Source of the DNA: Ensifer sp. BR816
Lineage (GTDB): Bacteria > Pseudomonadota > Alphaproteobacteria > Rhizobiales > Rhizobiaceae
DNA: 64,000 bases
Assembly: GCF_000378985.1 (NCBI RefSeq)
Contig: NZ_KB905370.1
Location: forward strand, 4,214,799 to 4,278,798
Direction: 5' to 3'
A program made the position numbers and the translations under genes. Positions 28,151 through 44,577 of this stretch are shown here, piece by piece (within the stretch, counting starts at the first letter, position 1; each line of letters begins with the position of its first letter). Below the pieces are notes generated by a model. It ran no database searches. It saw only the letters and a list, made by a program, of their open reading frames with translations, and was not told where the DNA came from.

Positions 28151-30529
28151 ATGAATACGCATTCGGTTGAGAGCCGCTTCATACTGATCGTTTCCAGCGC
28201 TCTCCTGCTGCTGATCGCGCCGCTCTTCGTGCTGTTTTTCTATCTCTCGAATGAACGCGCCTATCGCGACGTCATCGATCACGGCCAGGTCCTGCTCAAG
28301 GCCAACTCGCTGGCGCTGGGCAAGCCGCTTTGGGATTTCGACGAGGAAAGCGTTCGGCAGATCGCCAGCACGATCCTCGCGGACCGTTCGGTGATTTCCG
28401 TCCGCGTGCACGAGGTCGCCGGCGGTCTCGATGTCAGGTTGCCGGAACGCTCGCAGGACAAGGATCCGCCGGGAGAGATCCTGTCCACCCCCGTCCATTA
28501 TCGTTCGGTCGATGGGACCAAGACCGTCGGCGAGCTGGAGATCGCGCTCAGGCAGCGCGACCTCCTTTCCGATTTCAAGTTCGACGATGCCGTCTATATC
28601 GGCATCTTCCTGTTCGCGATCGTGATCATCACGGCGGCCGCCATCCTGGGCAACCGGATGATGGTGACGAGGCCGCTGCGGCGCCTGACGCATGCCATCG
28701 AGGCGACGCGCCGGTTCGGGTCGCGCCACATGGTGGACTGGGTTTCCGCCGACGAGATGGGAATGCTGGCCGCCAACTTCAACGAGATGCAGGCCCGCCT
28801 CGCCCAGGAGGAGAACGATCTCAAGCGCGCCCATCAGAAGACGACGCGCATCTACAACCTGACGCCGGCGAAGCTCTATTCCATCGACGACGAGGATCGC
28901 CTGACGGCGGTGAGCGACTATTGGCTGCTCGCCACCGGCTACGACCGCGAGACCGTTCTCGGTCACCCCTTCGCCGACTTTCTCGACCCGGCCACGCGCA
29001 CCGCCTACGAAAACCGCAAGCGGCAGGCCAGCGAAGGCGTTGAGGCCGCCACCGTCACGGTGAAATTCAGATGCGCCGACGGCCGCCTGATCGACGTCCT
29101 GATCAAGGAGGTGCAGGCGCTCGAGGCGGATGAAACCCTGTCCCTGGCCGTCATGACCGACGTTACCGAATTGAAGACGGCGGAGGAGCGCAACCATGTC
29201 CAGGCGATCACCGATCACCTCACGGGCCTCCTCAACCGCCCCGGCTTCGAGATGGTGCTCGATCGGTCGATCCGGCAGACGGCCGAAGAGGGCGGAGAAC
29301 TCGCCTGCCTGCTCATCGATCTCGACCGCTTCAAGCCGATCAACGACAATCTCGGCCATGCCGCCGGCGACGACGTGCTGCGCCAGATCGCCGGACGCAT
29401 CCGCTCGCAGGTGCGCGGCGAGGACAAGGTCGGGCGGCTCGGCGGCGACGAATTCGTCGTGCTGATCCCGGCAAGCAAGGCACAGAGCGCCGCGCTGCAG
29501 ATCTCCGAGCGCATCGCCGCCGCCTGCGCGGAGCCTGTCATCGTCGACGGCAACGCCTTGTCGCTGAGTGCCAGCATCGGCATTGCGCTCTATCCTGCGC
29601 AGGCGAAGACCGCCGCCGAATTGCTGCAGAAATCGGACATGGCGATGTATGCCCGCAAGCACAACGGCAAGAACGGCGCGAAGCTCTTCGACCCGCTGAT
29701 GGCGAGCCTGGCCCAGGAAAGGCTGAAGATCGACACCTATATCGAAGAGGGACTGCGGCAAGACTGGTTCGACGTCCATCTGCAGCCGATCGTCGATCTC
29801 AAGGCCGGCCGGGTCGCCGGCTTTGAAGCGCTGATGCGCCTCAACCATCCCGAACACGGCATCCTGCCGCCGGCGGAAATCATCCGGGTCGCCGAAGAGA
29901 CCGGCGCGATCCTCAGGATCGGCGAGCGCATCTTCGAAAAGGCCGTCGCGCATCTTGCACGTCTCTCCTCAGTACCGGGCCTCGAAAACGCCTATCTGGC
30001 CGTCAACGTCTCGCCCCTGCAATTCCGCCCGGAGCTGCCGGCCAGCACGTTTTCCACCTTGATGAAATGGGGCATTACTCCGACGCGCATCGTCATCGAA
30101 ATCACCGAAGCGGTGCTGATGCACCCCAGCCCCGACATTCGCGACGTTCTCGGCGCACTGAACAATGCCGGACTGAGAATCGCCCTGGACGATTTCGGCA
30201 CGGGCTATTCCTCGCTGAGCTACCTCGTCCATTTCCCCGTCAACATCATCAAGATCGACCAGGCCTTTACCCGATCGCTGACGGATGAGAGCGAAACGGT
30301 CCGCCGTCGGGTCCGCAAGCTCATCGCCGGCATTCAGACCGTGGCGAACGAGCTGAATTGCCAGGTCGTCGCGGAGGGGATCGAGGCCGAGGAACAGCTG
30401 GACGCGCTCCTCACACTGGGCGTGAGCCATGGGCAGGGCTATTTTCTCGGGCGTCCCCAGCCCGTCGGCGACATCTTATCCAAACTCGAATGCGCACATC
30501 TGCCATTGCTGGCCGCGCCTGGGACCTGA
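28151..30529 (+). CDS. Membrane GGDEF-EAL protein with HAMP and PAS domains
   Basis: A 792-residue c-di-GMP enzyme. Helices at about 11-31 and 148-168 enclose a periplasmic domain of about 115 residues. HAMP follows (RPLRRLTHAIEATRR), then PAS (about 233-345), GGDEF (motif at 431-435, inhibitory-site RGED at 422-425) and EAL (motif at 559-561, with DDFGTG later). Both catalytic motifs look intact, so it could make and break c-di-GMP. The stop is 2 bases before the start of a periplasmic binding protein with no transporter partners, which suggests that the binding protein feeds the periplasmic sensor. Confidence 0.92.
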   Translation: MNTHSVESRFILIVSSALLLLIAPLFVLFFYLSNERAYRDVIDHGQVLLKANSLALGKPLWDFDEESVRQIASTILADRSVISVRVHEVAGGLDVRLPERSQDKDPPGEILSTPVHYRSVDGTKTVGELEIALRQRDLLSDFKFDDAVYIGIFLFAIVIITAAAILGNRMMVTRPLRRLTHAIEATRRFGSRHMVDWVSADEMGMLAANFNEMQARLAQEENDLKRAHQKTTRIYNLTPAKLYSIDDEDRLTAVSDYWLLATGYDRETVLGHPFADFLDPATRTAYENRKRQASEGVEAATVTVKFRCADGRLIDVLIKEVQALEADETLSLAVMTDVTELKTAEERNHVQAITDHLTGLLNRPGFEMVLDRSIRQTAEEGGELACLLIDLDRFKPINDNLGHAAGDDVLRQIAGRIRSQVRGEDKVGRLGGDEFVVLIPASKAQSAALQISERIAAACAEPVIVDGNALSLSASIGIALYPAQAKTAAELLQKSDMAMYARKHNGKNGAKLFDPLMASLAQERLKIDTYIEEGLRQDWFDVHLQPIVDLKAGRVAGFEALMRLNHPEHGILPPAEIIRVAEETGAILRIGERIFEKAVAHLARLSSVPGLENAYLAVNVSPLQFRPELPASTFSTLMKWGITPTRIVIEITEAVLMHPSPDIRDVLGALNNAGLRIALDDFGTGYSSLSYLVHFPVNIIKIDQAFTRSLTDESETVRRRVRKLIAGIQTVANELNCQVVAEGIEAEEQLDALLTLGVSHGQGYFLGRPQPVGDILSKLECAHLPLLAAPGT

Positions 30530-30531
30530 CG

Positions 30532-31254
30532 ATGAAACAGCTCTTCTTCCTGATTGCACTTCTCTTTCCGCTCGCCGCTCAATCGGCTGAGGTGAAGTTG
30601 GTGACCGAATCCTACCCGCCCTTCAATTTTCGCGAGGGCGAGGACTACAAGGGTGCTTCGGTCGAGCAGGTCAGGCTTCTGATGGACAATGCCGGCCTCC
30701 AATACACGATGGAGATGATGCCCTGGGCCCGCGCGCTTTTCCTGGCCGAGAACCACGAGATGCACTGCGTCTTCACCACCGTCCATAACAAGGAGCGTCA
30801 CGCCCGCTTCAAATGGGTGGAGCCGCTCTTGAAGAGCCGCACCGTGCTGATCCGCAAGGTCGGCTCGCCTGCCAATCCGAAGACCCTCGACGAGGCAAAG
30901 ACCTTCAAGGTCGGCACGCAGCGCGACGACTTCACCCAGACCATTCTCGAGGAAAACGGTTTCCCGCGGATCGACCTCGCCACCGACCTGGAACTGACGC
31001 TGAAGAAGCTCCTGACCGGTCGCATCGACCTGATGCCGATTTCGGAGAAATACTTCGACAAGCTGAAGCGCGACGGCACGCCGATCGAATCGACGCTGGT
31101 CCTTGCCGAGGACATCTATTCGATCGCCTGCAATCCCTCCGTGCCGGATGAAGTGATCGGCCGGATGCAGAAGGGCCTCGACAAGGTCATCGCCGATGGC
31201 ACGCAGGGGCGTCTCTTCGAGAAATACGGACTCGCGACCGAAGAGCAGAAGTGA
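30532..31254 (+). CDS. Orphan family 3 substrate-binding protein
   Basis: A 240-residue periplasmic protein with an 18-residue signal peptide (MKQLFFLIALLFPLAAQSA). The family 3 fold is recognisable (VKLVTESYPPFNF, GASVEQVRLLMDNAGL, LKKLLTGRIDLMPISE). It starts 2 bases after the GGDEF-EAL stop, so the two are surely co-translated. No permease or ATPase is nearby. The likely role is to sense a small solute and signal through the periplasmic domain of the upstream enzyme, as NspS does for MbaA in Vibrio cholerae (comparison, not proof). Confidence 0.88.
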   Translation: MKQLFFLIALLFPLAAQSAEVKLVTESYPPFNFREGEDYKGASVEQVRLLMDNAGLQYTMEMMPWARALFLAENHEMHCVFTTVHNKERHARFKWVEPLLKSRTVLIRKVGSPANPKTLDEAKTFKVGTQRDDFTQTILEENGFPRIDLATDLELTLKKLLTGRIDLMPISEKYFDKLKRDGTPIESTLVLAEDIYSIACNPSVPDEVIGRMQKGLDKVIADGTQGRLFEKYGLATEEQK

Positions 31255-31337
31255 GCGGCGAGACTGCAGTAGGCCGCCGGCAGCGAGCCCTGTATGATCG
31301 GCAGAGCCTTCATTTTCGCGAGGCCGGACCGGCACAG

Positions 31338-31487
31338 ATGTCCCGTATCCTGATCACCATCGGCCTCGTCATCGTCGCCATCGGCATTCTCTGGCCCTGG
31401 CTTACGCGGATCGGCGTCCCGATCACCAGCGGCCTTATCGTCAGCATCCTGCTGACCGCGGTCCTCTGGCTGGTTTACCGGCACTGA
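31338..31487 (+). CDS. Shortened DUF2905-like membrane protein
   Basis: A 49-residue protein with two hydrophobic helices, MSRILITIGLVIVAIGILWP and TSGLIVSILLTAVLWLVYR. The ends match DUF2905 proteins of about 65-70 residues, but the central segment (normally around GRLPGDI and a short polar loop) is missing, so the helices are joined by only TRIGVPI. The frame is open further upstream to 31251, but homology begins at the ATG at 31338. Function is unknown. It may be co-transcribed with the binding protein upstream. Confidence 0.6.
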   Translation: MSRILITIGLVIVAIGILWPWLTRIGVPITSGLIVSILLTAVLWLVYRH

Positions 31488-31573
31488 CGATCTCAGCGGC
31501 GTGAGCGCGGCACTCGGGTTCGCCTACATCACGATGGCGAACCCCGAGGAGGCTTTACGGCCGGGACGCCCGG

Positions 31574-32401
31574 TCAGTAGGATTTCTGCAGGTGCGAGGA
31601 CGAGGTCGCCTGCTGGCCGCCCTTCTCCGCCTGCCGCAGCGCCCGGTACTCGGCCACGGCGGCGAGGCCCGCGTCGCGCAGCAGCGCCACGTCGTGCGGG
31701 CCGGCGATGACGCGATAGCCGCGGTCGACCAGATCGGCGACGGAAGCGCCGGCGTTCGGCACGGTACCCATGATCTTGCCGGAAGCGAGGATAGCCTTTT
31801 CGGCGCGTTGAACCAGCTCGCGCACCTCCGGATGACCTGTCTGCTCGAGGCGTCCGATCGAGCCGGCGAGGTCGTTGACGCCGATGAAGATGATGTCGGC
31901 GCCCTCGGTTGCCGCGATCGCCTCGGCGTTCTCGACCGCCGTGAAGGACTCGATCTGCACGGCGATCAGCATGTTCTCGTTGGCCTTGTGGATATAGCCG
32001 GGCTCCAGCCCGAAGGTCGAGGCGCGCACGACGCCCGCCGCATAGCCGCGGATGCCGTCCGGCGGGTAGCGGCAGGCCCGGACCGCCGCAAGTGCGGCTT
32101 CCGCCGTATCGACCGAGGGGATCATGACCGACTGCACGCCCGCGTCGAGCACCCGCTTCAGGAAGACATGATCGTTCCACGGCACCCTGACCAGCGCCGG
32201 CGACGGCGTCGTCTCGATGGCGCGCAGCGTGTCGATGATCTCGCTGGTCTCGCCGACGCCATGCTCGTGGTCGACGAGCAGGAAGTCGAAGCCGGCATGG
32301 CCGAGGATTTCCGCATTGGTCGGCGCGCCGCCGCCGACCCAGCATCCGAACGCGACGTGACCGGCGGCAAGGTGGGCTTTCAGGCGGTTGGGTGTGTACA
32401 T
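31574..32401 (-). CDS. HpcH/HpaI-family aldolase
   Basis: A 275-residue class II aldolase of the HpcH/HpaI (2-dehydro-3-deoxyglucarate / 4-hydroxy-2-oxoheptanedioate) family: VDHEHG with the catalytic His region, RVPWND, GVQSVMIPSVDT, the metal-binding Glu in QIESFTAVENAEAI, and GVNDLAGSIG. It splits a 2-keto-acid into pyruvate or a related ketoacid and an aldehyde. It is last in the minus-strand operon after the three TRAP transporter genes, so its substrate is probably derived from the imported acid. A sugar acid is the likeliest class; an aromatic meta-cleavage product is the alternative. Confidence 0.88.
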   Translation of the reverse strand: MYTPNRLKAHLAAGHVAFGCWVGGGAPTNAEILGHAGFDFLLVDHEHGVGETSEIIDTLRAIETTPSPALVRVPWNDHVFLKRVLDAGVQSVMIPSVDTAEAALAAVRACRYPPDGIRGYAAGVVRASTFGLEPGYIHKANENMLIAVQIESFTAVENAEAIAATEGADIIFIGVNDLAGSIGRLEQTGHPEVRELVQRAEKAILASGKIMGTVPNAGASVADLVDRGYRVIAGPHDVALLRDAGLAAVAEYRALRQAEKGGQQATSSSHLQKSY

Positions 32402-32474
32402 GAACAGTCAGCCTCGAATTTGTCGGGAGGGGAAGCATGGGGCGCGCCTTCACGCCCCATGCGATGACGGGACT

Positions 32475-33488
32475 TCAGTTTGCGGCGCGGACCCGCTCGA
32501 TCGTTTCGTTGAGCGCCTTGACGAGGTCCGGATTGGCGGAGGCCGCAAATTTCTCGGCGACCGGCTTGGTCTTCTCGCGGAAGCGGGCGATTTCCTCGGG
32601 CGGCAGCTTGGTGACGGTCATGCCGGAGGCGGCAAGCGCGTCGACCGCCTTCTGGTCGGCATCGCGGGAGAGCTGGCGCTGGAAGGCCGCGGCCTCGGTG
32701 GCGGCGGCCTGCAACAGGTCCTTCTCCTCCTGGTCGAGCTTCTCCCACAGCGGCTTCGAGAACAGCAGCACCATCGGATTATAGGTGTGGCGCGTCAGCG
32801 TGATGTATTTCTGCACCTCGTTGAGCTTGGCCGTCAGGATGCTCGGTGCCGGGTTCTCCTGGCCGTCGACCGTCCCGGTCTCCAGCGCCGTATAAACTTC
32901 CGGGAACGGCATCGGCACCGCATTCGCACCGAGCGCCTGGAACATTTCCAGATAGATCGGCGACTGCACGACGCGGATCTTCAGGCCCTCGATGTCGTCG
33001 ACCTTCTCGACGGGGCGGCGGCTGTTGGTGAGATTGCGGAAGCCGAGCTCCCAGTAGGCGAGCACGACGAGGTTCTTGTCGTCGAGTTCCTTGGCAAAGG
33101 TCTTGCCGACCTCGCCGTCCATCACCGCGTCGGCTTCCTTGGTCGATTCGAACAGGAACGGCAGGTCGAGCACGGCAAAGTCCGGCGCAAGGCTCGCCAT
33201 AAGCCCGGCATTCATCACCGACATCTGCAAGAGCCCGCCCTGCAGCGCGGTCACTGACTGAAGGTCGCCGCCGAGCATGCCGGCCGGAAAGACCTTGACG
33301 TCGATCTTGCCGCCGCTCTTTTCCTTGACGATCTCGGCGAATTTGCGCTGGCCGATGACGAGCGGCGAGCCTTCGGCGCCGGCGCTGGCGAAGCGGATCG
33401 TCTGCTCGTTGATCTCGGCGCTGGCCGTAAGCGGCGCGGCCGAAGCCAGCATCAGACCGGTTATCACTGCCATCAAAGTCTTACGCAT
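32475..33488 (-). CDS. TRAP transporter substrate-binding protein (DctP family)
   Basis: A 337-residue periplasmic protein. The signal peptide ends near ASA-EI (residue 24). Family motifs include GAEGSPLVIGQRKFAE, the arginine-containing GLKIRVVQSPIYLEMFQALGANAVPMPFPEVYTALETG, and VDGQENP. The conserved arginine usually contacts the carboxylate of the ligand. AGGAGG lies close upstream of the ATG. It is the third gene of the operon DctQ-DctM-DctP-aldolase, so it should deliver an organic or sugar acid to the membrane part. Confidence 0.92.
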   Translation of the reverse strand: MRKTLMAVITGLMLASAAPLTASAEINEQTIRFASAGAEGSPLVIGQRKFAEIVKEKSGGKIDVKVFPAGMLGGDLQSVTALQGGLLQMSVMNAGLMASLAPDFAVLDLPFLFESTKEADAVMDGEVGKTFAKELDDKNLVVLAYWELGFRNLTNSRRPVEKVDDIEGLKIRVVQSPIYLEMFQALGANAVPMPFPEVYTALETGTVDGQENPAPSILTAKLNEVQKYITLTRHTYNPMVLLFSKPLWEKLDQEEKDLLQAAATEAAAFQRQLSRDADQKAVDALAASGMTVTKLPPEEIARFREKTKPVAEKFAASANPDLVKALNETIERVRAAN

Positions 33489-33526
33489 GTCGTTTCCTCC
33501 TTGATACGATGCGATTTTTTAAGAAT

Positions 33527-34807
33527 TCAGCGCCCCAGCCAGGCGGCCGGCCAGATGACGAGTTCGGGAAAGGCGATCATCAGCCCCAGCACGACGAGCT
33601 GGGCGACCATGAAGGGCGTGACGCCCCGGATCACCGTTTCCATGTTGAGTTTGGAGACGCCGGCGACGACGTTCAGCACCGTGCCGACCGGCGGCGTGAC
33701 GAGGCCGATGGAATTGTTGATGATGAACAGCACGCCGAAATAGATCGGGTCGATGCCGGCCGCCTGCACCACCGGCACCAGCACCGGCGCCAGGATCAGG
33801 ATGGTCGGCGCCATGTCCATCGCCGTGCCGACGATGACGACGAGGATCATGATCGCCAGCATCAGGAGCTTCGGGCTGTCCATAAAGGGCGACAGAAGTT
33901 CGATCACCTGCCCCGGCAGGTCGGCGATGGTGATCAGCCAGGCCGAGACGAGCGCCGCGGCGACGAGGAAGATGACGACGCTCGTCACCTTGGCGGAGGA
34001 GACGAAGACGGCGTAGAGCTGGGAAAGGCTGAGCTCGCGGTAGATGCTGGTGGCGACGAAGATCGAATAGACGGCGGCGACGACGGCGGCCTCGGTCGGG
34101 GTGAACAGGCCGAATTTCAGGCCGAAGATGATGATCACCGGCAGGCCAAGCGCCCAGAGGCTTTCGCGCAGCGCCTTCAGCCGCTCGGCGCCGCTGGCAC
34201 GCGGCCGGAGCTCGATCTCCTCCTTGCGCACCATCAGCCACCAGGCGACCGCAAGGCCGACGCCGATCATCAGGCCCGGCGCGATGCCGGCCATGAAGAG
34301 CTTCGAGATCGACAGGTTGGCGGTGACGCCGAAGAGAATGAAGGCGATCGACGGCGGGATGATCGGTCCGATGACCGAGGCCGAGGCGACGAGGCCGGCG
34401 GAGCGCGCCTTGTCGTGTCCGGCCTTGACCATCATCGGCACGAGAAGCGCCCCGAGCGCTGCCGCGTCGGCGACCGCCGACCCGGAGAGCGCAGAGAGAA
34501 CGCAGGCCGCGATGATCGCCACATAGCCGAGCCCGCCACGCACATGGCCGACAAGCGTTAGAGCCAGCGCCACGATGCGCTTCGAGAGCCCACCGGCATT
34601 CATCACCTCGCCCGCCAGCATGAAGAAGGGCACCGCGAGCAGCGTGAAGCTGTCGGTGCCGCCGACGAGGTTTTGCGCCAGAATCTGCGGATCGAACATG
34701 GCAAGCTGCACCATCAGCGCCACCCCGCAGATCAGCAGCGCATAGGCAATCGGCATGCCGATCGCCATGGCGGCAAGAAGGGCGGTGATGAAGACCAGAA
34801 TTGTCAT
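33527..34807 (-). CDS. TRAP transporter large permease (DctM family)
   Basis: A 426-residue protein with about 12 hydrophobic helices and the DctM pattern (FFMLAGEVMNAGGLSKRI, GPIIPPSIAFILFGVTA, GLVTPPVGTVLNV). It uses an ion gradient, usually sodium, to move the acid presented by the binding protein. It lies between the small permease and the binding protein, with gaps of 106 and 38 bases. Confidence 0.92.
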   Translation of the reverse strand: MTILVFITALLAAMAIGMPIAYALLICGVALMVQLAMFDPQILAQNLVGGTDSFTLLAVPFFMLAGEVMNAGGLSKRIVALALTLVGHVRGGLGYVAIIAACVLSALSGSAVADAAALGALLVPMMVKAGHDKARSAGLVASASVIGPIIPPSIAFILFGVTANLSISKLFMAGIAPGLMIGVGLAVAWWLMVRKEEIELRPRASGAERLKALRESLWALGLPVIIIFGLKFGLFTPTEAAVVAAVYSIFVATSIYRELSLSQLYAVFVSSAKVTSVVIFLVAAALVSAWLITIADLPGQVIELLSPFMDSPKLLMLAIMILVVIVGTAMDMAPTILILAPVLVPVVQAAGIDPIYFGVLFIINNSIGLVTPPVGTVLNVVAGVSKLNMETVIRGVTPFMVAQLVVLGLMIAFPELVIWPAAWLGR

Positions 34808-34913
34808 CGCGGACCAACCTTTGCCGCTGGGCTAAGGGGGAAACTCACCCTTCGGATCGCGGCTGCAACTTTCGGAAGCGCCGATGGCGCATTGAAACGG
34901 CTCGGCAACACCC

Positions 34914-35465
34914 TCAGCGCGGCGGCGCGCCGCCGGGCGGCATTTGCGCGATGTCGAAATCCTCTTCCGATTCCTTGACGCCGATCAGCTCTTCGTCGCT
35001 GATCCGACCGCTCAGCGACCGCAAGAGCGAGAGGCAGAACCAGGCGGCTGCGAAACCCGTGAAGATCAGCACCGGCACGAAGAACCAGGCCTGGGAGATG
35101 CCCATGACCGGCGTCGTCATGCCGAGATTGATGCCGAACTGCTGCCAGGTGCCGGAGAAGATCAGCCAGGTCGTATAGAGCATCAGCAGGTTGGAAAGGA
35201 CGAAGCAGACGAGGCGGCCCTTGCGAGAGAGCCGCCTGATCAGCGTATCGACGCCCAGATGCGCCTGCTCGAACAGCGTCACCGCCGCGCCAAGGAAGAC
35301 CACCCAGACGAAGAGCAGGCGCGACAGCTCCTCCGACACGGAAATGCCGGTGTTGAAGGCGTAGCGCAGGACGACATTGCCGAAGACCAGAACCAGCATG
35401 GCCGCAAGACAGGCGGCGAGCAGGAACTGCATGGGGCTCAGCAGGAATTTGCGGATCGCGTTCAC
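34914..35465 (-). CDS. TRAP transporter small permease (DctQ family)
   Basis: A 183-residue protein with four helices and the DctQ core (VVLRYAFNTGISVSEELSRLLFVWVVFLGAA, AHLGVDTLI). The longest frame begins at 35513, but a GTG at 35465 has GGAGGAG 6 bases upstream, so the start is placed there. First gene of the operon; the operator at 35540 lies about 75 bases upstream. The acidic C-terminus (DEELIGVKESEEDFD) is unusual in length. Confidence 0.85.
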   Translation of the reverse strand: MNAIRKFLLSPMQFLLAACLAAMLVLVFGNVVLRYAFNTGISVSEELSRLLFVWVVFLGAAVTLFEQAHLGVDTLIRRLSRKGRLVCFVLSNLLMLYTTWLIFSGTWQQFGINLGMTTPVMGISQAWFFVPVLIFTGFAAAWFCLSLLRSLSGRISDEELIGVKESEEDFDIAQMPPGGAPPR

Positions 35466-35539
35466 GTTGGCTCCTCCTCCGATGAGGACTGTCCCGGTCA
35501 TGCGCCTCTGCACATCACCGCCTCCGGACGCCGCTCAGA

Positions 35540-35555
35540 ATGTAAGCGCTTACAT
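35540..35555. promoter_or_regulatory. LacI-type operator, perfect palindrome ATGTAAGCGCTTACAT
   Basis: A perfect 16-bp palindrome between the TRAP operon and the LacI gene. It differs in sequence from the GntR-like boxes, so it is probably read by the local LacI protein at 35651. Confidence 0.75.
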
Positions 35556-35578
35556 ATCACTTTCATTCGAAGTGTCAA
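35551..35578 (-). promoter_or_regulatory. Promoter of the TRAP operon
   Basis: On the minus strand TTGACA (35578-35573) and TATGTA (35556-35551) are 16 bases apart. The -10 box overlaps the palindrome at 35540, consistent with repression. Confidence 0.5.
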
Positions 35579-35607
35579 ATGGAATGTAAAAGGCTTGGAA
35601 GAACGGA

Positions 35608-35621
35608 TGTAACCGTATACA
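35608..35621. promoter_or_regulatory. Second, weaker LacI-type operator
   Basis: TGTAACCGTATACA matches TGTAAGCGCTTACA at 11 of 14 positions. It lies 67 bases centre-to-centre from the first site and 30 bases before the regulator start, so it may serve autoregulation or looping. Confidence 0.5.
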
Positions 35622-35650
35622 TATCTAATCGATTGAGGAGAATCGAACCG

Positions 35651-36703
35651 GTGGCACGCGGAGGAAGAGAGCGGAACGGACAGACGGGGGCCCGCGCGCT
35701 CGATGTCGCGGCGCTTGCCGGTGTTTCGACTGCCACGGTGTCGCGCGCCTTCAATGCGCCGGAGAAGGTCGCCCCGGACATTCGCGAAAAGGTGCTGAAG
35801 GCGGCGGCCGAGCTCGGCTGGATGCCGCACCCGGCCGGCGCGGCGCTGGCGAGTCGCCGCACCTGGCTTGCCGGAGTCCTCATTCCGACGCTCGACAACG
35901 ACGTCTTCGCTTCCCAGGTCGGCGCCTTGCAGACGCGGCTCTCCGCCGACGGCGTCACGGTGCTGATCGGCTGTTCGAACTACGACGCCGACCAGGCCGC
36001 AAACCAGGTCCGCACCATGCTGGCGCGCGGCGTCGAGGCGCTGGCGGTCGTCGGCGAATCGCACCGCCCCGGCCTGTTCGAGACGATCTCCGGGCGGGGC
36101 GTTCCCTATGTCGTCACCTATTCGCACCGGCCCGGCTCGCCTCACCCGAGCGTCGGTTTCGACAACGCCGCCGCCTTCCGGCGGATCGCCCGCCACCTGC
36201 TCGATCTCGGCCATCGCGATTTCGGCCTGATCCACCAGCCGTCGATCGACAACGACCGCGTCGTGGCCCGCATCGAGGGCCTGCGCGCGACGCTCGCCGA
36301 GGAAGGGGTGGCGCTCAGACCGCAACACGTGCGCGAGGGGCCGGCGAGCATCGCCTTCGGCCGCGAGAGCCTGCGCTCGATCGTGGATGCCCCGGGGCCA
36401 CGGCCGACGGCAGTCGTCTGCGGCAACGACGCGCTGGCGATCGGCGCGCTCATCGAGGCCCGGGCGCTGGGCATCGGCGTGCCGGACGAACTCTCGATCA
36501 CCGGTTTCGACGACGTCGCGATGGCGGAACAGACCGACCCGCCCCTCACCACCATGCGTGTCGACAATGCCGAGATCGGCCGGCGGGCGGCAGACTATCT
36601 GCTCGCCTGCCTCGCCGGCCGTCAGCCGCCACCGCCGCCGCCGCTCGAAAGCCGCCTGATCCTCCGGGCATCGACGGGTGTCCCTGCCCGTTCCGCCGCC
36701 TGA
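35651..36703 (+). CDS. LacI-family regulator of the TRAP/aldolase cluster
   Basis: A 350-residue LacI/GalR regulator: ALDVAALAGVSTATVSRAFNAPEKV (helix-turn-helix at about residues 16-35), hinge AAELGWMPHPAGAALAS, then a sugar-binding-protein-like domain with the usual CGNDALAIGAL and ITGFDD. The longest frame reaches 35579 but runs through the second operator. The GTG at 35651, with GAGGAG about 10 bases upstream, gives a normal length. It is divergent from the TRAP operon and followed by a hydratase gene that it may also control. Confidence 0.88.
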   Translation: MARGGRERNGQTGARALDVAALAGVSTATVSRAFNAPEKVAPDIREKVLKAAAELGWMPHPAGAALASRRTWLAGVLIPTLDNDVFASQVGALQTRLSADGVTVLIGCSNYDADQAANQVRTMLARGVEALAVVGESHRPGLFETISGRGVPYVVTYSHRPGSPHPSVGFDNAAAFRRIARHLLDLGHRDFGLIHQPSIDNDRVVARIEGLRATLAEEGVALRPQHVREGPASIAFGRESLRSIVDAPGPRPTAVVCGNDALAIGALIEARALGIGVPDELSITGFDDVAMAEQTDPPLTTMRVDNAEIGRRAADYLLACLAGRQPPPPPPLESRLILRASTGVPARSAA

Positions 36704-36729
36704 CCTTTCCTTCCAAAACGGATGTTCGC

Positions 36730-37485
36730 ATGACCGACGCTACACTTTTCGATGCTGCTGATCTCGCCCAGCGTTTTGCGACAGCGAAGGATCGCATCGC
36801 CGCCGCGCAGCTGCCGGCGCCCGCGACCATCGCCGAGGCGACCGCCGTACAGGCGGCGTTCGTCGCGCCCGAAGACGCGCCCGCCGCGGGATACAAGGTG
36901 GCCCGCTCACCCGAAGGCATAAGCGTCGCCGGCCGCCTCTCGCCGATCGCGATCGTCGGGGCGGATGCGCGGCCCGCCGCCTTTCGCTGGCGCAGGGGTG
37001 TGCGCGTCGAGGCGGAGATCGGCTTCCGTCTTGCCTCGAGCCTACCGCCGCGACAGGCAGGCTATAGCCGCGACGAGGTGATCACCGCCATCGGCGCGGT
37101 CCATCTCGGGATCGAGGTCCTCGACAGCCGCATCGACGAAGGCAGCAAGGCGCCGTTCCTTCTCTTCCTTGCCGATCGGCTCGGCAATGCCGGCTACGTG
37201 CTCGGGCCTGAACTGCCACGTGATTTCCTCGACGCGGAGGGGCGGACGCTGGGCGTGAGCCTCGACGGAGCCCCGATCTTCGAGGGAGAAGCGCATCATC
37301 CGGCGGGCGACGTGCTCGCCTGGCTGGTCGGCTGGGCCAACGAAACGCAAAGGGCGGAGAACTCGCTCGCTGCCGGCGAAATCGTCACCACCGGCAGCCT
37401 GTGCGGCGCCCTCGACCTCGCCGCACCCGGCCGCGTCGACGTGCGGCTCGACGGGCGATGGAGTCTAGCTGTTCGGTTCGAATAG
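36730..37485 (+). CDS. 2-keto-4-pentenoate hydratase-like protein (FAH superfamily)
   Basis: A 251-residue protein of the MhpD/4-oxalocrotonate decarboxylase branch of the fumarylacetoacetate hydrolase superfamily. Seen motifs are the acidic metal-site region RVEAEIGFRL, IGAVHLGIEVLDSRI and the C-terminal EIVTTGSLCGAL. Family enzymes hydrate or decarboxylate 2-keto-acids using a divalent metal. It follows the LacI gene by 26 bases. Together with the aldolase across the operator it could form a two-step hydration and aldol cleavage of an unsaturated or deoxy-keto acid (inference). Confidence 0.78.
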   Translation: MTDATLFDAADLAQRFATAKDRIAAAQLPAPATIAEATAVQAAFVAPEDAPAAGYKVARSPEGISVAGRLSPIAIVGADARPAAFRWRRGVRVEAEIGFRLASSLPPRQAGYSRDEVITAIGAVHLGIEVLDSRIDEGSKAPFLLFLADRLGNAGYVLGPELPRDFLDAEGRTLGVSLDGAPIFEGEAHHPAGDVLAWLVGWANETQRAENSLAAGEIVTTGSLCGALDLAAPGRVDVRLDGRWSLAVRFE

Positions 37486-37521
37486 CGAAAAGGCCGCGGC
37501 GATATTGGGGACGCCGAAGTA

Positions 37522-37699
37522 GCACCCTCCCTCTGCCCTGCCGGGCATCTCCCCCACAAGGGGGGGATCGGCAAGTGGCGGCGCCTCGCTCGACTAATTA
37601 CTTTTCGGGATTTCGCGGGCCTGTTGTCTGGCAGGGCTCCGCCTTTGTCCAATCTCCCCCCTTGCGGGGGAGATGGCCGGCAGGCCAGAGGGGGGTGCC
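37522..37699. repeat. Rhizobial palindromic intergenic element (RIME-like)
   Basis: Arms of about 34 bases at 37522-37555 and 37666-37699 are close to perfect inverted copies (GCACCC...CATCTCCCCC against GGGGGAGATGGCC...GGGTGCC). The interior contains shorter GC hairpins. It lies between convergent genes, the usual place for such repeats. It has no coding sense. Confidence 0.75.
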
Positions 37700-37735
37700 A
37701 CTTGGCCAGTTCGGCGCCGGTCCCTCCCGGCCCTC

Positions 37736-39679: not shown

Positions 39680-39996
39680 CGATGTTTCCTTGTCCCTTTG
39701 ATGCATCGCCGCGGCTCCCGCGACCGAGTTGGCCGGGCCGTCGTTCTTGCGTCCTTCTGAATCAACGTATCAAGGAGGCGCGAGCGGGCGCATGGTGCAG
39801 CCCGCGTCAAAACCGTCCCAAATGCTGTGAAAACCAGTCCTAGCGGCGGCTTGCGCCTCGAAGGCCACCCGCCTTCATGGCGGTTGAGACAAGCGTTACA
39901 TCCGCTTCGCTTTGCTCAAGAAATGGCATCTGTTGGTTGCGAAATGGTGAATAATTAGCTTTTCTATAAAAGTAATTTCTAAAATTGCCATGATAA
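39680..39996. other. Gap of 317 bases, no gene seen
   Basis: The chemoreceptor promoter must lie here. The right part, near 39930-39990, is AT-rich and may hold the crcB terminator. No open frame of interest. Confidence 0.35.
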
Positions 39997-40386
39997 TCAG
40001 GCCGCCTGCCCGGCCGCGAGCAGGCGGACGACCATCATCCCGGCAAGCAAGCTGAGAAGCGAAAAGATCACGGAGGAAGCGGCGTAGATCGCCGCGGCCA
40101 TCCACTCGCCGCGCTCAAAGAGGCCGATCGTGTCGAGCGAGAACGCGGAAAAGGTCGTGAACCCGCCGAGGACGCCCGTCGCCAGGAACAGCTGTACATC
40201 CGGGGGCAGGTCGCCGCGCAAGGCGAAGTATTCGGCAAGCAGGCCCATCGCGAAGGAACCGGCGACGTTGATCGCCAGGGTACCGAAGGGGAAAGGGACA
40301 CCCAGAACCTGGCCGGCGAACTGGTTGACGCCATGGCGCATGGCGCCGCCCAATCCGGCACCGATGAATACAAGCAGATAGGCCAT
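39997..40386 (-). CDS. crcB: CrcB/Fluc fluoride channel
   Basis: A 129-residue four-helix membrane protein. Motifs are GGAMRHGVNQF, PFGTLAINVAGSFAMGLL (pore Asn), and GGFTTFSAFSLD (the Phe-box and central sodium-site Thr). Fluc channels export fluoride as antiparallel homodimers. A single 129-residue gene is the normal homodimeric form. The start at 40386 is fixed by the family; longer frames upstream are not conserved in style. I looked for a fluoride riboswitch in the 60 bases upstream and saw none. Confidence 0.92.
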   Translation of the reverse strand: MAYLLVFIGAGLGGAMRHGVNQFAGQVLGVPFPFGTLAINVAGSFAMGLLAEYFALRGDLPPDVQLFLATGVLGGFTTFSAFSLDTIGLFERGEWMAAAIYAASSVIFSLLSLLAGMMVVRLLAAGQAA

Positions 40387-41180
40387 TGCTCTGTGTTTTT
40401 CCTTTTGCGACGCAAGAGTTGGGGACAATAAGGCGGCACGCAGCGTGCGACAACTGCCGCGCCGTCTGGCGCAGGATTTCCTGGACTCGGACACGGCCTC
40501 GGGGCGTCCCATGCATGCCTGCTGGGATGCCGCGGCGCGACCGCTTGCGGGCGCGTTCCACGAGCCGGACCGATTTGGGGCAGCCCGGAGCACTGGTCCT
40601 ATCCACTTTCTGCATCGACCTGTCCACTTTCCGCCGCGATCTGTCGGAAAGGCTTCGTATTTAAGCGTTTGTTTACCCAAGCCCGGTTGGGTGGTGATTG
40701 CGACGGCGATCGCCAATGCAACCGGGGGATACGCCCTCGAGTGTCGATCCAGAAGGCTCCGGCCTTTTTCCATCCATTCGCTCCGGCGGGATGAGCCCGC
40801 GGGATTTCAATATCCCATGTTTCGAGAATTGGCTGACCGCATTCGGCGACGGGCGCGGAAGGATGCCCGCGCGCTCGACGTTTATGATCTCCTCTCCCCG
40901 TTCGCGGGGACAGGCGCAGGGTGACGGGGCGGACGCCCCTCGCCCATCCATGCATCTCGCTTCCGGAGCCGTAACCAGTGTCGAATATCGCTGCCTTTCC
41001 ACCCCGAACGCCCAAGGACCGCGCCCGCGCAGCCGACCTGCAAAACGCCAGGGACCGCATGCTCGTCGTCGCCGCCGAGCTCGACCGCCTCGTGACGGTA
41101 TCGCAAGAAGGCTTGCGGGCTGCCTCCGAACAATGGGGAAGAACCGGTACCTGACGCGGGACCGGCGGAGGAGGACAAAG
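40387..41180. other. Gap of 794 bases with one doubtful small ORF
   Basis: No conserved gene is seen apart from the doubtful 58-residue frame at 40978-41154. The long frame on the plus strand that runs into the GGDEF-EAL gene is open here by chance, as its content before 41181 has no family resemblance. Confidence 0.4.
40978..41154 (+). CDS. Possible small helical protein
   Basis: A GTG-started frame of 58 residues just upstream of the GGDEF-EAL gene. The middle (KDRARAADLQNARDRMLVVA, then AELDRLVTVSQEG) would form an amphipathic helix and has high GC at third codon positions. GGAG lies about 10 bases upstream. There is no homology that I recognise. It could be a real small partner of the downstream enzyme or a chance frame. 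Confidence 0.3.
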   Translation: MSNIAAFPPRTPKDRARAADLQNARDRMLVVAAELDRLVTVSQEGLRAASEQWGRTGT

Positions 41181-43307
41181 GTGCGAGCACGTCAGCCTGA
41201 TGAGATGATTGAACGATCGGAACTGCTGGCCAAGCCCCGGCAATCGGTGGAGCAATATATCCGGTCGATCGGCCGGCACTATCTCAACGCCGTCATCGTC
41301 ATGACGATGCTGATCGCCGCCACCTATCTGACCATGCTGGTCGCCCTTGACCGCCATTCGCTCCAGCAGAAGATCAGCTTTCTGACCAGCAACCAGTACA
41401 TCCGGTTCCAGCAGCTCGCCAACCAGACCCGGGCGCTGATGCGGGCCTCAACCGATCCCAATCTGACGGAATATATCATCGGTCCGATGCGCGACGATAT
41501 CCACCGGGCAATCGGCGATATTCATGCGATGGGCTCGGAATTGCAGGAGCTCCATCAGAGCCTCGGCGGCAATCTCCTGGAAAGACTCAACCGGCGCGAC
41601 GAACTATCGGTGCAATTGCGTCTGGAGCTCAACGCCCGGCTGCAGGACTTTCTCGAGCGCGCCGCACGGATAGCCGATGCAAGCACCGAGGACCGGCGGG
41701 AGCGCTACTCCTTCTGGGGCCCGATCGACTTCGCGGTCGCTGCCGACAGCATGCTTATCCGCCAGTTCAGCGACCTCATCCGCTACGGGCATGACCGCAG
41801 CGGCGTCAGCATCGACCACGCCAAGCTGATCACCACGGGCCTCCTCGGGCTGATCGCCGCCGCCGTCATCCTGGCGAGCACCTTCCTGTTCAGCCCGCTC
41901 CTGAAGAAGCTGCGCAATGAGCATCGCCGTACGATGGCGTTCGAGAAGCAGCTGACGCAGCTCGCCCACACCGACGCACTGACCGGTCTCAACAACCGCT
42001 CTTCCTTCAATCTTGCCCTCGGCAACCTCTTTGGCGAACTGGAGCGGACCGGCACCGGCTTCTCCATGCTGCTCGTCGACCTCGACCGCTTCAAGAGCAT
42101 CAATGACGGCCTTGGCCATCCGGCCGGCGATGCGGTGCTGCGGCATGTCGCCCGCGCCCTTCAAAGGACGTTGCGCATGAGCGACGTCATCGCCCGTCTC
42201 GGCGGCGACGAGTTTGCCGTGCTGCTCCCGGGAATCGGCGATGCCGCCGCGCTCGAAGCGGTCGCCGCGCGGGCGATCGAGGCGATCGCCGCCGGCATTT
42301 CCTTCGAGGAGCGCACCCTTGAGGTCTCTGCCAGCATCGGCGGCGCCGTCGTGCCCGACCACGCCGCGGACGAGGCAAGCCTCATGCGCATCGTCGACCT
42401 GGCGCTCTACACCGCGAAGGGCAGCCGCAGTGCCACGGTGATATTCGACGAGGCGGCGCTGGCAAGACGGCTCGAGCAGAACCAGCTCTCCCTCGCCCTC
42501 GTGCTCGCCGCCGATCGCCGCGAATTCGTCGTGCACTACCAGCCGAAGGTCGATCTCACGACCGGCGCGCATCTGGGCTTCGAGGCGCTGGTGCGCTGGC
42601 AGCATCCCGAGCTCGGCTTGCTCCCGCCCGGCCGCTTCATGCCGTTGATGGAGGGAACCCAGCTCATCCGCGGCATGACCCGCGCCGTCATCGCCACCGT
42701 CGGCCGCGACCTCAAGGCCTGGAAGGCAGCCGGGCTCGCGCCCGGCCCCGTTTCGATCAACCTGCCGGAGGTGCTGCTCGTCGGCCAGGAAGGCTATGAG
42801 ATGTTTGCCGGCGCGGTTCGCGACAACGGCCTGGAGTGGGAGGACTTCGCGGTGGAGATCACCGAGGACGTCTTTCTCAATCGCTCGGCCGATCAGATTC
42901 TTGCGACGGTGGCGCGGTTCCGCCAGCACGGCCTGTCGATCTCGCTCGACGATTTCGGCACCGGCTTTGCTTCGCTCGTGCACTTACGCGATTTCCCCTT
43001 CGACGAATTGAAGATCGATCGGAGCTTTGTCGACGGCATCGGCAAGGACGCCCGCAGCGAGCAGATCATCCAGGCCATGGTCCACCTCGCGCAGAGCCTC
43101 GGCAAGCGCTGCGTCGCCGAGGGCATCGAGACGGAAGAACAGCGACGTTTCCTGATGGAGGCCGGCTGCGACGTCGGCCAGGGATACCATTTCGCCAGGC
43201 CCGAGTCCGCCGCCCTTGCAGGCCAGCGACTGCCGGGACGGGCAGCCGCAGGCCGGCGTGCGGCCAAGACTTCGCCGGCATCGCTGCGGCGGATCGCGCG
43301 ACGGTAA
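41181..43307 (+). CDS. Membrane GGDEF-EAL protein with large periplasmic domain
   Basis: A 708-residue c-di-GMP enzyme. Helices at about 37-57 and 218-238 enclose a mostly helical periplasmic domain of about 160 residues. The GGDEF motif is at 341-345 with inhibitory-site RMSD at 332-335; EAL is at 468-470 with DDFGTG later. Both halves look active. There is no PAS domain, unlike the enzyme at 28151. The GTG at 41181 has GGAGGAGG 6 bases upstream and is preferred to ATG 41205. It is followed after 22 bases by an orphan binding protein, so again a two-gene sensing unit is likely. Confidence 0.9.
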   Translation: MRARQPDEMIERSELLAKPRQSVEQYIRSIGRHYLNAVIVMTMLIAATYLTMLVALDRHSLQQKISFLTSNQYIRFQQLANQTRALMRASTDPNLTEYIIGPMRDDIHRAIGDIHAMGSELQELHQSLGGNLLERLNRRDELSVQLRLELNARLQDFLERAARIADASTEDRRERYSFWGPIDFAVAADSMLIRQFSDLIRYGHDRSGVSIDHAKLITTGLLGLIAAAVILASTFLFSPLLKKLRNEHRRTMAFEKQLTQLAHTDALTGLNNRSSFNLALGNLFGELERTGTGFSMLLVDLDRFKSINDGLGHPAGDAVLRHVARALQRTLRMSDVIARLGGDEFAVLLPGIGDAAALEAVAARAIEAIAAGISFEERTLEVSASIGGAVVPDHAADEASLMRIVDLALYTAKGSRSATVIFDEAALARRLEQNQLSLALVLAADRREFVVHYQPKVDLTTGAHLGFEALVRWQHPELGLLPPGRFMPLMEGTQLIRGMTRAVIATVGRDLKAWKAAGLAPGPVSINLPEVLLVGQEGYEMFAGAVRDNGLEWEDFAVEITEDVFLNRSADQILATVARFRQHGLSISLDDFGTGFASLVHLRDFPFDELKIDRSFVDGIGKDARSEQIIQAMVHLAQSLGKRCVAEGIETEEQRRFLMEAGCDVGQGYHFARPESAALAGQRLPGRAAAGRRAAKTSPASLRRIARR

Positions 43308-43329
43308 CGTTTCAAGGATGGAGGAGATG

Positions 43330-44577
43330 ATGAGAAGACGAATGAAAAGCGCCAGCCTGGCCGCGGCGCTGCTGCTTTGCAGTGCCTGCCCGCCTGCTGC
43401 TGCCGATCAGAACGGCGCCGTCGATGTCGTGCATTTCTGGGTGTCGCAGAGCGAGGCGGCGGCACTCGACGTGCTGCGCAAGGCCTGGGCCGAGACCGGC
43501 CGCCAATGGATCGACCTGCCGGCGGAGAACAAGGTGGCGGTGCAGAGGGTTGTCAGCGATCGCATTGCAAACGGCTATGCGCCCGCCGTCATGCAATGGA
43601 ATGCCAATGAGGGTTCCCGCGAGCTGCCCGAGATGGGTATCGTGCTCGACATCGAAGACGTCGCGAAGGCCGATGACTGGCGCAGCGTCCTGCCGGCAAG
43701 CGTGTTCGAACGGATCAGCTACAAGGACAAGGTGTTCTTTGCGCCGACCAATATCCACGCGGAAAACTGGCTCTGGACCAGCGAGGCGATCTTCCGCGAG
43801 GTCGGCCTGAAGGCGCCCGAAACATGGGACGAAATCTTCACCGCTGCGGAAAAGATCAAGGCGGCAGGCCACGTGCCTATCGCCCTCGGGGATCGCCCCT
43901 GGGAAATATCCCTCGTCTTCAACGGCATCATGTATTCGCAGCTCGGCTCCGAAGGCTATGCCCGGATCATGCGCGGCGACCCTGCACTCGTCAGGGATCC
44001 ACGCATGGCCGAGGCGCTCGGCATGCTGCGGCGCCTGTCCGGCTATGCCCCGCCGGCGGCAGCGCGCCACAACAAGACCTGGGCGGACGCCACCGCCGCG
44101 GTCGGTGCCGGCGAGGCAGGGATGCAGTTCATGGGCGATTGGGCAAAGGGCGAGCTGGTGGCCCGTGGCTACGCCGTCGACAAGGATTTCGGCTGCAGCC
44201 TGATACCGGGCACGGAGATCGCCTATTTCATGGTCATCGACGCCTTCGCCTTTCCGCTGACGAACCGCGAGGATGCTGCCGAGGCGCAGCGCGCCTTCGC
44301 CCGCATGGTGCTCGATCGCGACAACCAGGTCGCCTTCAGCCGCATCAAGGGCTCGCTGCCGGTGCGCACCGACGTCGACCCGAGCGGGCTCGACCGCTGC
44401 GGTCGCCTGGGCCTCGAGAAGATCATCCGAAAGAGCGGCGTCAGCGCCCAGTCGATGGCCATGCCCACCCAGACCTCGGAGGGCTGGATCGCCGTGCTGG
44501 CCGATTTCTTCAACGATCAGACCATGCCCGTCGAGACCGCTCAGCAGCGCCTCTACGACATCATCGATCGGCAATGA
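43330..44577 (+). CDS. Orphan family 1 (sugar-type) substrate-binding protein
   Basis: A 415-residue extracellular solute-binding protein, with a signal peptide to about residue 22 (LLLCSACPPAAA-DQ). Family 1 motifs include VVHFWVSQSEAAALDVLRKA, APAVMQWNANEGSREL, and GLKAPETWDEIFTAAEKIKA. Several in-frame ATGs (43318, 43327, 43330, 43342) are near a GGAGGAG run; 43330 fits best. No permease or ATPase is present nearby; the next gene is a LysR regulator. The tie to the GGDEF-EAL gene suggests a sensory rather than transport role. Confidence 0.87.
   Translation: MRRRMKSASLAAALLLCSACPPAAADQNGAVDVVHFWVSQSEAAALDVLRKAWAETGRQWIDLPAENKVAVQRVVSDRIANGYAPAVMQWNANEGSRELPEMGIVLDIEDVAKADDWRSVLPASVFERISYKDKVFFAPTNIHAENWLWTSEAIFREVGLKAPETWDEIFTAAEKIKAAGHVPIALGDRPWEISLVFNGIMYSQLGSEGYARIMRGDPALVRDPRMAEALGMLRRLSGYAPPAAARHNKTWADATAAVGAGEAGMQFMGDWAKGELVARGYAVDKDFGCSLIPGTEIAYFMVIDAFAFPLTNREDAAEAQRAFARMVLDRDNQVAFSRIKGSLPVRTDVDPSGLDRCGRLGLEKIIRKSGVSAQSMAMPTQTSEGWIAVLADFFNDQTMPVETAQQRLYDIIDRQ

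Follow-up and report, generated by a model that had tools for sequence, protein, structure and literature searches.

A stretch of 64,000 nucleotides of Ensifer sp. BR816 (contig NZ_KB905370.1, positions 4,214,799 to 4,278,798 of the forward strand; hereafter the window) carries two units, each of which consists of an orphan solute-binding protein (SBP) gene adjoining, on the same strand, the gene of a membrane GGDEF-EAL enzyme of cyclic di-GMP (c-di-GMP) turnover, with no adjacent permease of its own (Table 1). Each unit is probably a two-gene sensory module in which the SBP gates its partner enzyme according to ligand state. Unit 1 is an old and conserved pair, and unit 2 is a younger one in which the recruitment of an SBP can be followed. 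The basis of this reading consists of the gene pairs themselves, the intact motifs of the enzymes, the finding that no permease of the expected kind lies beside them, co-inheritance over a long time, the single clade formed by the orphan SBPs of unit 2 and the conserved core of their sugar pocket. Since the two partners have nearly always been kept together in the related rhizobia examined, the SBP is probably the external sensor of the enzyme.

Organization of the two units

The original prediction, made from the letters of the window alone, had described two pairs of a GGDEF-EAL gene and an orphan SBP gene separated by 2 and 22 nt, and both are present with these gaps, the shorter one in unit 1. 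The motifs were likewise claimed to be intact, and inspection agrees: an I-site (RxxD) precedes GGDEF in both enzymes, as RGED in unit 1 and RMSD in unit 2, and FEAL and DDFGTG follow. Both GGDEF domains match the active-cyclase pattern described in PMC8546604, from which the EAL pattern used for scoring was also taken. The EAL domain of unit 2 passes this pattern with small slack (~2 residues per spacing), and that of unit 1 fits it only when the slack is widened. In Pfam, the unit 1 enzyme gives HAMP, PAS_9, GGDEF and EAL and the unit 2 enzyme neither a HAMP nor a PAS match, and the SBP of unit 2 (SBP_2) matches SBP_bac_1/8. Among NCBIfam models (best 25 per protein), none was above its cut-off except the GGDEF domain model. 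Signal peptides of SBP_1, the SBP of unit 1, and SBP_2 were assigned by eye. The one coordinate of the prediction that had to be changed is the start of unit 2, which had been placed at 41181, an in-frame GTG; to judge from the orthologues, the ATG at 41205 is more likely.

The original prediction had considered the two units not to be a recent duplication, on account of the different families of their SBPs (3 and 1) and their different sensors. This is borne out by an SBP_bac_3 protein in unit 1 and an SBP_bac_1 protein in unit 2, and by predicted sensor folds that differ as well, PAS-like alpha/beta in the former and a helical bundle in the latter. The possibility that the units are mutual copies was rejected on these grounds.

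Table 1. Position and strand of the two units and of nearby transporter genes in the window
Feature	Position	Strand	Description
Unit 1 GGDEF-EAL enzyme, 792 aa	28151..30529	+	transmembrane (TM) segment, PAS-like periplasmic domain, TM, HAMP, PAS_9, GGDEF with I-site, EAL
Unit 1 periplasmic sensor, ~residues 36-141 (~106 residues)	28256..28573	+	predicted alpha/beta PAS-like, moderate model confidence
Unit 1 orphan SBP (SBP_1), SBP_bac_3, 240 aa	30532..31254	+	signal peptide by eye
Unit 2 GGDEF-EAL enzyme, 700 aa from ATG 41205	41205..43307	+	TM, helical periplasmic domain, TM, GGDEF with I-site, EAL
Unit 2 periplasmic sensor, ~residues 50-204	41352..41816	+	predicted all-helical bundle
Unit 2 orphan SBP (SBP_2), SBP_bac_1, 415 aa	43330..44577	+	glucose-binding-protein type; signal peptide by eye
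TRAP (tripartite ATP-independent periplasmic) transporter	32475-35513	minus	near unit 1; own SBP of another family
Branched-chain ABC (ATP-binding cassette) transporter	from 45672		near unit 2; own SBP of another family

Conservation of unit 1

Homologues of SBP_1 were found as 32 matches in 27 of the 151 genomes of the family sample, and the enzyme gene lies upstream on the same strand at all 30 loci that were fetched, the two unfetched matches being second, tandem SBPs inside two of these loci (L005 and L006). The N-terminal part of the enzyme has a similar distribution, with matches at E <1e-80 at 31 places in 28 of the 151 genomes. A broader view is given by 80 named loci, the best of 343 relatives, which share some genomes with the family sample and belong by title mostly to Rhizobium, Sinorhizobium, Ciceribacter, Agrobacterium vitis and unnamed Rhizobiales, together with one metagenome bin titled Arenimonas. 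In every one of these 80 the SBP has enzyme sequence ahead of it (77 by the first filter, and three on short contigs). The median gap between both genes is 24 nt over 78 loci (L174 and L186, whose matches are normal, were omitted for false script coordinates); it is <=40 nt in 68 of these and 357 nt at most. Conserved synteny, which the original prediction had put forward as a way to check the pairing, is therefore found for unit 1 at 30 of 30 and 80 of 80 loci, in overlapping samples, and for unit 2 in 10 of 11 genomes of the genus, as described below.

The usual place of the pair is between two housekeeping genes: rplY and pth are both present in 74 of the 80 named loci, typically in the order rplY-DGC-SBP-pth (DGC, diguanylate cyclase). 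The six loci that do not have both comprise one short contig, with pth only, and the five closest matches, which come from Sinorhizobium/Ensifer of the window's kind; for one of these, L145, the contig is too short to decide. By SBP_1, the closest named loci are those of Sinorhizobium fredii, S. glycinis and S. americanum (90-93 percent identity). Moreover, the same genome holds a paralogue of unit 1 at C1:2302216-2305573 (L096), inserted between rplY (L25) and pth. Since the closest loci depart from the rplY-pth placement while the genome also has a copy there, unit 1 of the window is a Sinorhizobium/Ensifer copy apart from the usual locus.

Trees of the enzyme and of the SBP were compared for 78 tips, that is 76 of the 80 loci, the window and its own paralogue. 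The two trees have 42 of 75 splits in common, in comparison with two or fewer in 200 shuffles, and 37 of the 50 well-supported splits of the enzyme tree are found again in the SBP tree. The unit 1 module is present in many rhizobia and some agrobacteria.

Some variation of the locus was also observed. A second SBP_1-like gene occurs after or near the first in L005, L006 and seven of the 80 named loci, which suggests that some unit 1 loci hold two alternative binding proteins for one enzyme. In two genomes of the same genus (L002 and L003, from G045 and G138), the strand opposite the pair carries, beyond the SBP, another GGDEF-EAL gene (~35 percent identity).

Unit 2 and the recruitment of its binding protein

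Unit 2 has a much narrower distribution. Its sensor was found in five of the 151 family genomes, the same five that carry close orthologues of SBP_2, in 11 of 33 genomes of the genus and in none of the 384 other genomes of the class sample. In 10 of the 11 sensor-bearing genomes of the genus an SBP_2 orthologue follows on the same strand, 1.37-1.42 kb past the sensor match.

The identity of SBP_2 to the other four family orthologues is 69-78 percent and then drops to 38 percent and below; SBP_2-like matches of some kind exist in 113 of the 151 family genomes. One locus each was fetched from 30 genomes, and a permease (query BPD_transp_1) was searched for within ~1.5 kb on each side. Twenty-five loci have a permease match and no GGDEF-EAL match, and the remaining five, the orthologues, have the enzyme and no permease match. 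A permease of the expected type was also absent from three further unit 2 loci of the genus. The orphan SBPs of unit 2 form one clade with a support of 100/100 and a stem of 1.84 changes per column; according to a warning of the tree program, this long stem joins L036, which is also long.

The nearest solved chains of SBP_2 are 5xpj (E 9e-68) and 5dvf, named as the binding protein component of an ABC sugar transporter, which we take to be the glucose-binding protein of Pseudomonas putida CSV86, as the residue numbers agree. Out of its 12 glucose contacts, as listed in PMC7927077, SBP_2 retains seven (W37, E42, Q89, W251, W271, D304 and K340); four are replaced (F36, N67, N91 and V302, of which N67 faces a gap when aligned a second way), and His379 is without a His counterpart. 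Among the 30 SBP_2-like loci, N91 is also widespread in the importer relatives, and F36 occurs only in the orphans. By sequence, SBP_2 descends from glucose-type ABC sugar-binding proteins, and unit 2 would then show clearly how a transport protein has been turned to signalling, with the importer relatives still available for comparison.

Predicted sensor folds and likely ligands

In the model of the unit 1 sensor (mean predicted local distance difference test, pLDDT, 76.9; predicted template modelling score, pTM, 0.46), the part enclosed by the two TM helices consists of one long and one short helix and a sheet of four strands. In a Foldseek search its top matches, alone under E 0.001, are two integrative models (WalK-YycH and McpB-McpC), followed by the LapD-type periplasmic domain of the LapD orthologue CdgS9 (4u64; E 6e-3, probability 1.00). 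A profile search of the PDB returned chemoreceptor and NarQ chains, matched mainly over the TM and HAMP part. The unit 2 sensor, modelled from five sequences, is predicted to be all-helical (mean pLDDT 75.1, pTM 0.56), and the segment YSFWGPIDFAV is invariant across the five sequences aligned. For this sensor Foldseek gave nothing at E <0.001 and the PDB profile search nothing at E <0.1; the weak Foldseek matches include designed bundles, NarQ and Tar.

With regard to ligands, an Arg usually holds the carboxylate and an Asp the amino group in the SBP_bac_3 family. In SBP_1, Arg89 is invariant in 29 aligned sequences, together with two Cys (79 and 200), and the position of the usual Asp is taken by a serine, S171, invariant in a 12-row alignment. 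With the Arg kept and the Asp replaced, the best guess, and only a guess, is that the ligand probably carries a carboxylate but is no standard alpha-amino acid. For SBP_2, recruited as it seems from glucose-type sugar importers, the ligand is probably a hexose or a similar sugar. Few c-di-GMP enzymes have known ligands, and an adjacent SBP offers a purifiable protein for ligand screens.

Other pairs in the genome

The genome has 27 GGDEF matches, and 29 SBP_bac_3 and 51 SBP_bac_1 matches over cut-off (one match below cut-off was excluded for each). For four of the 27, an SBP_bac_1 or SBP_bac_3 match lies within 3 kb on the same strand, in comparison with 0.92 by random placement (P ~0.012). 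These are unit 1, unit 2, the unit 1 paralogue and, at ~C1:4.84 Mb, a pair in which the SBP gene comes first. Taken alone this test is modest evidence, since its null is crude, its four cases include two paralogues and only these two SBP families were counted; conservation is far stronger evidence than the random-placement test.

In 22 regions of other GGDEF genes, inspected with an open reading frame (ORF) heuristic that marked no GGDEF ORF in six of them, 13 of 14 neighbours were scanned and none matched an SBP family (the fourteenth is a long ORF downstream in L233). On C1, a CreA-family ORF is found directly after, or overlapping the end of, a GGDEF ORF at ~68 kb (L240), and an IS66 transposase ORF directly upstream of, and slightly overlapping, a very long GGDEF ORF at ~1.44 Mb (L229).

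Proposed mechanism and alternative explanations

In the proposed mechanism, SBP and enzyme would probably be made from one transcript, as the gaps between their genes suggest, and the SBP, by its putative signal peptide, would be exported to the periplasm, where it would bind a small ligand. Depending on its ligand state, it would dock on the periplasmic domain of the enzyme, and docking would shift the latter between synthesis and breakdown of c-di-GMP, with a presumed output on biofilm, motility or exopolysaccharide. Unit 1 would do so with a PAS-like sensor and an SBP_bac_3 protein, and unit 2 with a helical-bundle sensor and an importer-derived SBP. A wider proposal, to which an even chance may be given, is that the Rhizobiaceae repeatedly made uptake SBPs into dedicated inputs for c-di-GMP: in unit 2 an importer SBP would have lost its permease and become the sugar sensor of a helical-bundle receptor, in unit 1 the rplY-DGC-SBP-pth module would read a carboxylate, and with the NspS-MbaA-like pair described below three SBP-enzyme lineages in four pairs would serve four of the 27 GGDEF proteins.

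SBPs that share permeases are established, and both SBPs could be ordinary importer parts that work with a permease from another locus, their joint transcription with the enzyme serving only to co-regulate uptake and lifestyle. The genome is indeed rich in SBPs, as its 29 SBP_bac_3 and 51 SBP_bac_1 matches indicate, and the core of the sugar pocket is intact in SBP_2. Against this, a permease of the expected type lies neither at the five orphan unit 2 loci nor at the three further ones of the genus, all 25 fetched SBP_2 relatives with a permease are without the enzyme, and the unit 1 pair sits between housekeeping genes in 74 of 80 loci, which together make this explanation an improbable one. 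It is slightly less probable still that the genes are neighbours by operon convenience, with an enzyme that senses alone and an SBP whose role in the periplasm is a different one or whose binding to the enzyme involves no ligand. Partners that were lost or broken singly, as well as an SBP that does not co-evolve preferentially with the sensor, speak for such a loose association, but enzyme sequence stands upstream of the SBP in 80 of 80 unit 1 loci, the unit 2 pair is together in 10 of 11 genomes of the genus, and three SBP-enzyme lineages occur within one genome.

Several observations weigh against gating by the SBP. In G092, the sole one of the 28 enzyme-bearing family genomes without an SBP match, the order is rplY-enzyme-pth and the SBP gene is missing, and in the eleventh sensor-bearing genome of the genus (G536, L223) the enzyme is intact and the SBP_2 gene is in two pieces in different frames. 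Conversely, the enzyme falls into several frames beside an intact SBP in L146 (Ensifer sp. LCM 4579) and L178 (Rhizobium sp. RCAM05350), so that either partner can be lost singly. Distance matrices for unit 1, from 52 non-redundant loci among the 71 with all four genes, gave partial correlations (r) of SBP_1 distances of 0.345 with the periplasmic domain, 0.383 with GGDEF, 0.196 with EAL, 0.152 with PAS and 0.027 with TM2/HAMP; as the value for the periplasmic domain is not above that for GGDEF, no specific co-evolution of sensor and SBP is apparent. The structure matches of both modelled sensors are weak. In the class sample, SBP_1-like matches were found in 18 of 385 genomes (33 matches outside the own genome, with 28 loci fetched), and outside the family a GGDEF gene adjoins the SBP_1-like gene at one fetched locus out of 28 (L121). 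In six non-own loci with unit-1-like sensor regions an SBP_1-like gene was present at none, a thin control because just one of them, L257, belongs to a GGDEF-EAL enzyme and the matched region extends over TM and HAMP. Finally, a study of P. putida did not regard its arginine SBPs as directly responsible for signalling through c-di-GMP (PMC7423604), which calls for caution in assuming a signalling role.

With the pairing almost absent outside the family, the coupling of SBP and enzyme looks lineage-specific in these families, which fits recruitment and not a universal rule. The general modular design advanced by the original prediction is right as a principle, already published as such (PMC9602780), and its local form appears restricted to certain lineages.

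Neighbouring genes

The scanned genes that flank the units comprise LysR, SDR (short-chain dehydrogenase/reductase), GFA, HpcH/HpaI aldolase, TRAP genes, LacI, MCP (methyl-accepting chemotaxis protein), CrcB, LysR and branched-chain ABC genes; the region 36730-37482 gave no Pfam match. The claim that no transporter genes accompany the two SBPs holds, as the nearby TRAP and branched-chain ABC transporters have SBPs of their own from other families, and the window contains no permease resembling those beside the SBP_2 relatives. Just past unit 1, at 31574-36703, the HpcH/HpaI aldolase, the TRAP transporter and a LacI-type regulator probably form a separate catabolic locus.

Comparison with known systems

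Both units probably work, by analogy, like NspS-MbaA, ScrB-ScrC or PruR-DcpA. In NspS-MbaA of Vibrio cholerae and S. meliloti, and thus in Sinorhizobium too, an SBP gene likewise adjoins that of a GGDEF-EAL enzyme with two TM segments. Nevertheless, NspS is PotD-like and encoded upstream with an overlap, whereas the SBPs of units 1 and 2 are downstream and of other types; on the other hand, MbaA of S. meliloti (smc00991-smc00992 pair), as described in PMC9993111, has SGDEF, no I-site and periplasmic residues 24-256, whereas both units have LGGDEF with RxxD and shorter sensors. A pair that does fit is found elsewhere in the genome, at C1:4835935-4839449 (L097), where the gene of a PotD-like SBP (best Pfam SBP_bac_8) comes first and overlaps by 4 nt that of a 796-aa enzyme; the latter reads LSGDEF, lacks an I-site and has its TM segments at 5-30 and 255-289. 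By description, this pair agrees largely with the published S. meliloti system (PMC9993111). SBP_2 and the NspS-like protein of this pair gave short, weak matches only. Because this separate pair is present, and with SBPs that are downstream and of non-PotD types and a GGDEF with I-site, the identity of unit 1 or unit 2 with NspS-MbaA was rejected; out of the likeness to MbaA/NspS originally predicted, a similar way of working stays probable.

In ScrB-ScrC of Vibrio parahaemolyticus, a periplasmic binding protein likewise switches a GGDEF-EAL enzyme from one operon (PMC11315295). The scrABC operon also encodes a signal-making aminotransferase, ScrA, with no equivalent among the scanned neighbours in the window, and the likeness to ScrB is one of description. 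A further parallel within the Rhizobiaceae is PruR-DcpA of Agrobacterium tumefaciens, again a secreted ligand-binding protein with a dual cyclase-phosphodiesterase, although PruR, according to PMC13259868, has a sulfite-oxidase-type fold, binds pterins and is not an SBP, and its gene is upstream, unlike those of units 1 and 2. In RmcA of Pseudomonas aeruginosa an SBP_bac_3 domain is found inside the c-di-GMP enzyme (PMC8846402), whereas SBP_1 is separate and secreted; the same difference applies to PDB 7ejg chain C (an 'EAL domain-containing protein'), matched by SBP_1 with E 1.4e-5, in which the SBP domain is part of the enzyme. As for SBP_2, a glucose SBP of its type, GltB of P. aeruginosa, likewise signals to a membrane receptor, GtrS, which it binds and for whose activation it is required (PMC7927077). 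GtrS, however, is a histidine kinase, and GltB also serves a glucose ABC importer.

In searches of the open-access literature aimed at such pairs, none of the papers listed was on units 1 and 2 or on the rplY-pth pair. Further precedents for an SBP as the input of a c-di-GMP enzyme are NspS-MbaA (PMC8967002) and ArtI-STM1987 (PMC8846402, PMC7423604), and activation of receptors by SBPs, c-di-GMP enzymes included, is described as general and widespread (PMC9602780). Altogether, the principle that an SBP can provide the input of a c-di-GMP enzyme is already accepted, and units 1 and 2 add to it two new lineages of partners.

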